Assembly: GCF_037201915.1 (NCBI RefSeq)
Contig: NZ_CP147505.1
Coordinates: 1,116,001 to 1,180,000, forward strand
Length of the DNA stretch: 64,000 nt
DNA from: Haloplanus sp. CK5-1
GTDB taxonomy: Archaea > Halobacteriota > Halobacteria > Halobacteriales > Haloferacaceae
Direction of reading: 5' to 3'
Shown: positions 17,603-18,700 of the stretch, piece by piece
Layout of the letters: every line of letters starts with the position of its first letter
Position numbering within the stretch: the stretch's first letter is position 1
Program-made: the position numbers and the translations under genes
The notes under the pieces: generated by a model
Database searches by the model: none
Seen by the model: only the letters and a program-made list of their open reading frames with translations
Told to the model about the DNA's origin: nothing

Positions 17603-17646
17603 CTTCGGAAAGTTTCAATAGAGTTGCACGTGTTGCCAGTAGCCGT

Positions 17647-17697
17647 ATGCCGACAGCTACCACGGCGCACGCGACTGCGGGGGAGACCGATGCCTGA
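17647..17697 (+). CDS. Possible 16-residue leader ORF
   Basis: ATG at 17647 opens a 16-codon frame (MPTATTAHATAGETDA) whose stop lies seven bases beyond the start of the tail-tube gene. A TATA-like TTTCAATA (17613-17620) sits about 30 bases upstream, so a leaderless transcript would begin near this ATG, and the downstream gene would be read by coupling helped by GGGGGAG at 17680-17686. It could equally be chance. Confidence 0.3.
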   Translation: MPTATTAHATAGETDA

Positions 17698-18157
17698 CCG
17701 ACACGGCCCCTTCCGGACGGCACGGTTCGTCTTGGAGATCGACGGCGTCGCGAAGGCGGGATTCAGCCGCTGTCGCCTCCCCACCGCCTCGACGAAGGTG
17801 GTCGAGTACCGCGAGGGCAACGACACGGAGCCGACAGCCCGAAAACTGGCTGGTCTGAACGAGTACGGCCCACTTCGCCTGCAGTACGGTGCCACGGTCG
17901 ATACCCAGACCATCTACGACTGGCGACGACTGGTCGAGGACGGCAAGGTCGACGAGGCCCGGCGGTCGGTCGCCGTCGTCCTCCTCGACGAGGAGGGCTC
18001 GCCGGCGACACGGTGGGGGTTCGAGCGAGCGTGGCCCGCCCGCTACGAGGCCCCCACCCTCGACGCGACCCGCTCAGAGGTGGCGATCGAGACGCTCGAC
18101 GTCGTCTGCGAGGGGTTCGAACGTCTGGCCGGCGGATCGACCGACGACGCGGAATGA
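17690..18157 (+). CDS. Phage tail tube-like protein (T4 gp19 family), first copy
   Basis: A 155-residue protein that fits the gp19 inner-tube family from end to end: ARFVLEIDGVAKAGFSRCRL, KVVEYREGND, RKLAGLNEYGPLRLQYG, TIYDWRRLVEDGKVDEARRS, VVLLDEEGS, WGFERAWPARYEAPTLDA and EVAIETLDVVCEGFERL. In phages and contractile injection systems this protein stacks as hexamers to make the tube. No sheath, baseplate, spike, LysM or terminase gene lies in this window, so it may be a relic, a distant part of a particle locus, or a domesticated protein. The next gene is a diverged paralogue, overlapping by ATGA. Confidence 0.85.
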   Translation: MPDRHGPFRTARFVLEIDGVAKAGFSRCRLPTASTKVVEYREGNDTEPTARKLAGLNEYGPLRLQYGATVDTQTIYDWRRLVEDGKVDEARRSVAVVLLDEEGSPATRWGFERAWPARYEAPTLDATRSEVAIETLDVVCEGFERLAGGSTDDAE

Positions 18158-18675
18158 GCGCCCCCGGTCGGGACCCCTACGGCCGCCACCGGTTCGCCGT
18201 CGACATCGGCGACGACGGCCCGCCGATGGGGTTCACGGCAGTCCGGGGCCTGTCGGTGCGCGTCCAAGCGCGGGCCGGCGACGAGTCGTCCGAGGGGGAC
18301 CGGAACGGAATCGACGGCGGGGACTGGTGGGACTGGGGCGACCGCATCCGAGACGCCCTCGACGCCGTCCCGCCGGCACCCCGTCGCCGGACCGCCTCGC
18401 CCCACCTCACGCTCCGGCGCGGGGTGACCGACGACCGACGGCTGTGGGACTGGCTCCGCGACTGGGTGTCGGGGACGGTCGACCCGCGGACCGTCCAAGT
18501 CTTCCTGCTCGACGAGGCGGGCGACCGGCGGCGTGGCTGGCGCTGTCGCGACGCCACGCCGGTCCGATGGCGCGGACCGGAACTCGTCGCCGACAGGCCG
18601 GGCGTCGCCACCGAGACGTTGGAACTTGCTCACGACGGTGTCGAAGCCATCGACGATCCCATTGACCACGCTTAA
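18154..18675 (+). CDS. Phage tail tube-like protein, second copy with insert
   Basis: A 173-residue diverged paralogue of the gene before it. Matching segments are HRFAVDIGDDGPPMGFTAVR, LTLRRGVTDDRRLWDWLRDW, VQVFLLDEAGDRRRGW and RWRGPELVADRPGVATETLE. Between the first and second is an extra acidic Trp-rich loop (NGIDGGDWWDWGDRIRDALD) in place of the EYREG region. Contractile systems often have two tube proteins, one for the shaft and one adapter, and this pair has that look. ATGA overlap with the first copy indicates coupled translation and a fixed ratio. Both frames are intact, which argues for present use. Confidence 0.8.
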   Translation: MSAPGRDPYGRHRFAVDIGDDGPPMGFTAVRGLSVRVQARAGDESSEGDRNGIDGGDWWDWGDRIRDALDAVPPAPRRRTASPHLTLRRGVTDDRRLWDWLRDWVSGTVDPRTVQVFLLDEAGDRRRGWRCRDATPVRWRGPELVADRPGVATETLELAHDGVEAIDDPIDHA

Positions 18676-18700
18676 GCGTCGCCGTCCGTATCTTCCCACC

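Follow-up and report, generated by a model that had tools for sequence, protein, structure and literature searches.

An orphan inner-tube and adaptor gene pair of contractile injection system descent in haloarchaea, with the adaptor's stacking hairpin lost

Haloarchaea of several genera carry, in genomes where we found no other part of a contractile injection system (CIS), a free-standing pair of genes homologous to the inner tube (Cis1) and the tube adaptor (Cis5) of such systems. The pair has a single origin, is under purifying selection, lies behind a short overlapping leader open reading frame (ORF), and encodes an adaptor from which the stacking hairpin has been lost. Taken singly, its parts are familiar in kind; it is their combination, free-standing and loop-less, that is new. 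We encountered it in a window of 64,000 nucleotides from Haloplanus sp. CK5-1 (contig NZ_CP147505.1, positions 1,116,001 to 1,180,000), where the relevant features, in positions of the window, are the following:

17606 to 17620, forward strand: putative BRE/TATA-like promoter element CGGAAAGTTTCAATA, located some 30 nt before the ATG of the leader, at a position conserved in 8 of 8 aligned congeners.
17647 to 17697, forward strand: short leader ORF of 16 aa, MPTATTAHATAGETDA, the TGA of which overlaps the start of P1 (ATGCCTGA).
17690 to 18157, forward strand: P1, a Cis1-like inner tube protein of 155 aa (assigned by PF06841, NF053769, AlphaFold, PDB match and conservation).
18154 to 18675, forward strand: P2, a Cis5-like tube adaptor of 173 aa without the EGGxN hairpin (assigned by PF06841, NF053770, AlphaFold, PDB match and conservation).
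18667 to 18700, forward strand: hisC's own promoter and 5' region, with a CACGCTTAAGCGTCG... block found ahead of hisC whether or not a genome carries the pair.

Both frames are intact and overlap by ATGA, as a preceding sequence-only reading of the window had reported, and profile searches recovered the tail-tube relation that it had recognized in both products. It had further described the two as aligning along their length with the tube family, which is true of P1, covering the whole of the Pfam profile PF06841 (E=1.2e-35), but not of P2, in which only the C-terminal two thirds align (profile positions 47-134, E=5.1e-23). In NCBIfam, P1 is CIS1-like (NF053769, E=1e-31; 110 bits, not reaching the equivalog cut-off of 220 bits) and P2 is CIS5-like (NF053770, E=2.2e-21; far below its cut-off of 260 bits), and they are therefore a diverged Cis1 and Cis5 pair rather than duplicates of a single tube gene. 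P1 also scores 118.9 bits against TIGR02241 (cut-off 62.4) and, with full-length matches to this model and PF06841 as well as a stacking hairpin signature, has the marks of a Cis1 inner tube; the NF053770 match, Foldseek matches to CIS tube and adaptor chains, and tree position identify P2 as a Cis5 homolog with the tube fold. AlphaFold models of moderate confidence (pLDDT 75-81, pTM 0.67-0.70) find their best PDB matches in CIS tube and baseplate-tube proteins, namely the Algoriphagus CIS tube 7adz for P1 and Algoriphagus 7aeb chain Y for P2. C-terminal tails of P1 vary widely across carriers: a charged, probably disordered tail of ~20-65 aa is present in congeners and Haloferax (L033-L038, L072-L079), only ~8 aa remain in the window's species, and there is no tail in Halorubrum P1 or in CIS Cis1.

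Within the tube family of phages and contractile injection systems, to which both genes had first been assigned, the kinship is with the CIS side and not with the phage side. P1 shows 55-60% identity to haloarchaeal Cis1, and has no tblastn match in a phage collection of 50,697 records; its match to the phage family PHROG 4542 has E=2.5e-13. Similarly, P2 has no relative in a viral-contig collection, and with both collections devoid of matches a phage origin was rejected. Matches in a plasmid collection are to distant bacterial CIS-type genes.

The missing machinery is missing from the genome as a whole. The Haloplanus genome is a single contig of 3.24 Mb, 99.8% complete, and contains exactly two PF06841 matches, P1 and P2. 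A sheath (PF04984) is detected neither in this genome nor in any pair carrier examined; a search of this genome for a J-type baseplate protein (PF04865) gave no match; and gp25 (PF04965) and the Cis7-type CIS_tube protein (PF19266) are absent from 28 carriers (this genome and 27 others), where 4 of 4 CIS genomes used as positive controls matched both profiles. The tube terminator model (PF14065, Pvc16_N) found no match, and matched nowhere in the control genomes either. The lack of sheath and baseplate genes first noticed around the pair therefore extends genome-wide, and it separates the two explanations that had been offered for it: a split particle locus with its other parts elsewhere is contradicted by these absences, and tube proteins adopted for another task is the alternative that the evidence supports. 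Weak, distant sheath-like matches occur in two other genomes, G055 (C1:490649-491095, 8.5e-8) and G412 (C1:587115-587396 and 658926-659207, 6.4e-5 twice), neither of which has an orphan-type or CIS Cis5 match; these are possibly prophage sheaths.

Gp19-type genes were found in 40 genomes among the relatives searched, 23 of which also encode a sheath and represent real CIS; 13 of the 17 sheath-less genomes carry a close-set pair. A lone tube-like gene outside the orphan-pair clade is present in the other four (G043, G103, G128 and G116; loci L044, L045, L046 and L048, respectively). A class-wide draw of 391 genomes contained 24 with an orphan-type P2 (at least 160 bits; the next score, 134 bits, comes from a genome with a CIS) and a further, divergent pair in G351. 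Among the carriers are Haloferax massiliensis, sulfurifontis, prahovense, gibbonsii, marisrubri and denitrificans, Halorubrum halodurans, cibi, aquaticum and rubrum, and Halobellus captivus; among 15 Haloferax species, 8 have the pair, 2 a full CIS and 5 neither. P1 and P2 always occur together, coupled, in carriers. In quick maximum-likelihood trees orphan P1 forms one clade (SH-aLRT 96, stem 0.14), as does orphan P2 (SH-aLRT 99) on a much longer stem (0.53), and both clades nest within one type of haloarchaeal CIS. On this phylogenetic evidence the pair derives from a haloarchaeal CIS and arose once. A single Cis5-like gene in Halorubrum aidingense and Halorubrum sp. JWXQ-INN 858 (L094:7959-8420 and L095:7977-8438; also L154 and L155), with neither a partner tube nor a sheath in the vicinity, retains a YREGS...hairpin-type loop and represents an orphan tube lineage distinct from the pair.

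Within Haloplanus the pair is always located between GMC and hisC, and in 4 congeners without it GMC directly adjoins hisC, leaving a clean empty site. Conservation beside hisC is confined to this genus, however: two other genera keep an empty GMC-hisC junction while carrying the pair elsewhere, and its neighbors in other genera include a GH3 glycosidase, GatB/topoisomerase, a PLP-dependent (PALP) enzyme, a class II ribonucleotide reductase and ABC permeases. The stop codon of P2 (18673-18675) lies inside the TATA-like CTTAAG of the hisC promoter region. A functional link to GMC or hisC was rejected, because neighbors differ between genera and hisC has retained a promoter of its own. The within-genus median of NG86 dN/dS is 0.34 for P1 and 0.30 for P2, compared with 0.19 for hisC and 0.16 for GMC (crude pairwise estimates in a GC-rich genome); values of ~0.3 argue strongly against neutral decay, and all copies of P1 and P2 examined are open.

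P1 retains the stacking hairpin signature Y40 R41 E42 G43 ... P48 T49, R51, L53 (YREG..PT.R.L), modeled by AlphaFold as strands 33-42 and 49-59. At the corresponding site of P2 the model has a low-confidence stretch, with a linker at about residues 37-80. The Cis5 signature EGGxN...H.L, which is 92-100% conserved in 12 haloarchaeal CIS Cis5 of the nearest type, has been lost in 26 of 26 orphan P2, its place taken by a hypervariable linker of ~15-51 residues that is acidic and mostly Trp-bearing in Haloplanus, Arg/Pro-rich and without Trp in Haloferax, and 15 aa long in one congener. The acidic Trp-rich insert previously noticed in P2 is thus present, but is really a lineage-specific, hypervariable replacement of a conserved hairpin. 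To judge from alignments and predicted structures, the hairpin of P2 is gone and its fold is otherwise preserved. In a tail tube, a loop of this kind accounts for almost every contact between rings, and assembly no longer takes place once it is deleted (PMC10034513); loop mutants of Hcp1 fail at ring stacking (PMC4650826). Orphan P2 has also gained fixed residues: Trp104 is new, and Cys131 is present in 26 of 26 orphans as compared with 1 of 21 haloarchaeal and 0 of 18 bacterial Cis5. Cys28 of P1 is likewise invariant (27 of 27 orphans) but occurs in a minority of CIS tubes (3 of 17 haloarchaeal, 5 of 18 bacterial), and is therefore not specific to the pair. The G351 pair (L153:7134-8058), the most divergent and found beyond the family to which the window's genome belongs, has the same two cysteines, no Cis5 hairpin, and no sheath in its genome.

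Upstream of P1, the arrangement of the leader is conserved and the sequence of its peptide is not. A leader ORF with an ATG start, 16-49 codons, and a stop at -2, +8 or +11 nt from the P1 start is present in 32 of 34 orphan records, compared with 17 of 227 control genes. The remaining two records are one locus, where by eye the stop occurs at the same place and the start is only GTG/TTG. Several of the 34 records are near copies or duplicate genomes, so that fewer of them are independent (at least six genus-level contexts). The BRE/TATA-like element ~30 nt upstream of the leader start, a candidate promoter of the pair, suggests a leaderless transcript on which P1 would be translated by coupling. 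The leader ORF may exemplify a more general way in which leaderless haloarchaeal mRNAs have their second ORF translated.

We tentatively propose that the pair is a two-gene module captured from a haloarchaeal CIS that forms a small, self-limited, sheath-less particle, with P1 as a ring or short tube and P2 as a terminal ring. The inner tube and tube adaptor would have been captured once, then maintained and moved between genomes, with expression from their own promoter behind the translation-coupled leader ORF. P1, in which the ring-making and stacking signature is still present, would form a ring or short tube of presumably hexameric layers in the cytoplasm, where they are probably located (no signal peptide is apparent). 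P2 would then join an end and, with its hairpin lost, allow no extension. If P1 rings stack and a P2 ring cannot be extended, the product would be a short capped stack without sheath or baseplate, perhaps locked by the two invariant cysteines. P2 might also not form rings at all, and the wide variation of the P1 tails, the moderate confidence of the models and a Cys28 that is not peculiar to the pair weigh against the proposal too.

It may instead be that the tube role is gone, and that P1 and P2 assemble into a small hetero-oligomer that binds, or serves as a scaffold for, some ligand, enzyme or regulator and never stacks as rings. The lost loop of P2, its new invariant Cys131 and Trp104, and the variable, probably disordered P1 tails in Haloferax and Haloplanus would all be consistent with this. 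Nevertheless we think it rather unlikely, as the stacking-loop signature of P1 has been kept residue by residue, which is hard to explain if P1 never stacks, and no common neighbor gene indicates a pathway.

An archaeal type VI secretion system (T6SS) is known to kill Haloferax volcanii (PMC11566945), and it is tempting to speculate that the pair protects against such attack as a cytosolic tube/adaptor mimic that binds and blunts the incoming tube, spike or toxin parts of a neighbor. The 55-60% identity of P1 to haloarchaeal Cis1 and the patchy, self-contained nature of the pair point in this direction, as does the observation that pair and CIS never occur together in the 391 genomes (none of the 24-25 carriers is one of the 48 CIS genomes, where ~3 would be expected). 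However, the naive hypergeometric probability of this exclusion (P 0.034-0.039) ignores kinship and is therefore a lead only, P is 0.20 within Haloferax, and the immunity proteins known from that system pair with individual toxins and not with the tube (PMC11566945). We consider protection of this kind improbable, and it seems a long shot that a self-capped, free-standing ring particle from an archaeal T6SS-like CIS helps CIS-less haloarchaea survive the T6SS attack of their neighbors. PADLOC returned no match, and a known defense system was rejected as the identity of the pair.

Exclusion from CIS genomes would also be expected if a stacking-defective P2 poisoned the growing tubes of a contractile tail, whether of a virus or of a newly acquired CIS, since a ring that docks but is non-extendable resembles a dominant-negative subunit. 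This is very improbable given the lack of phage matches to P1, viral-contig matches to P2 and PADLOC matches; co-assembly with distant virus tubes is itself unlikely, and it is hard to see why blocking a CIS would benefit a cell. Finally, that the pair is a decaying leftover of a prophage or of a CIS cluster, as two genes left of a large machine might imply and as loss or frameshift in close relatives would have indicated, is scarcely credible, being contradicted by clean presence or absence with empty sites, intact frames in every carrier, dN/dS of ~0.3, a single clade spread over several genera and loci, housekeeping neighbors, and the lack of phage or viral-contig relatives or any other CIS gene or remnant.

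The closest known system is the haloarchaeal CIS, or archaeal T6SS, of Halogeometricum borinquense (Zachs et al. 2024, PMC11566945), P1 being a homolog of its Cis1 inner tube and P2 of its Cis5 class of adaptors. In contrast to that system, pair carriers lack sheath, gp25, CIS_tube and (in the window's genome) J-type genes, P2 lacks the adaptor hairpin, and the pair consists of two genes with their own leader ORF. The Cis1 and Cis5 layers of the Anabaena, Algoriphagus, PVC and AFP particles (PDB 7b5h, 7adz/7aeb, 6j0b/6j0n, 6rao) are similar in both fold and sequence. In Anabaena, Cis5 and Cis7 are the first layers joining tube to spike (PMC8894136). In these particles the adaptor has retained its hairpin and is placed between Cis7/spike and the tube, whereas the pair has neither spike nor Cis7-type partners. 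Phage tail tube proteins (T4 gp19, PHROG 4542) share the fold of P1, but the nearest relatives of the pair are CIS proteins. Orphan Hcp genes of bacterial type VI secretion are, like the pair, tube-fold genes at a distance from a main secretion cluster. Their products work for a T6SS that the same cell encodes, and pair carriers have no such system. We found no earlier description of the pair in the papers searched, a set that leaves out most subscription papers, and no passage on it in the accessible portion of a virus-infection transcriptome study of H. gibbonsii (PMC12542753). The survey of haloarchaeal CIS that we found used the sheath as its query and would therefore miss it.

The pair shows that selection can preserve a CIS inner tube in the absence of sheath and baseplate, the adaptor having lost its stacking loop in every lineage; surveys baited with the sheath overlook this family. 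Both the working of CIS tube proteins on their own and the relation of the pair to archaeal T6SS warfare are now testable in tractable Haloferax species.
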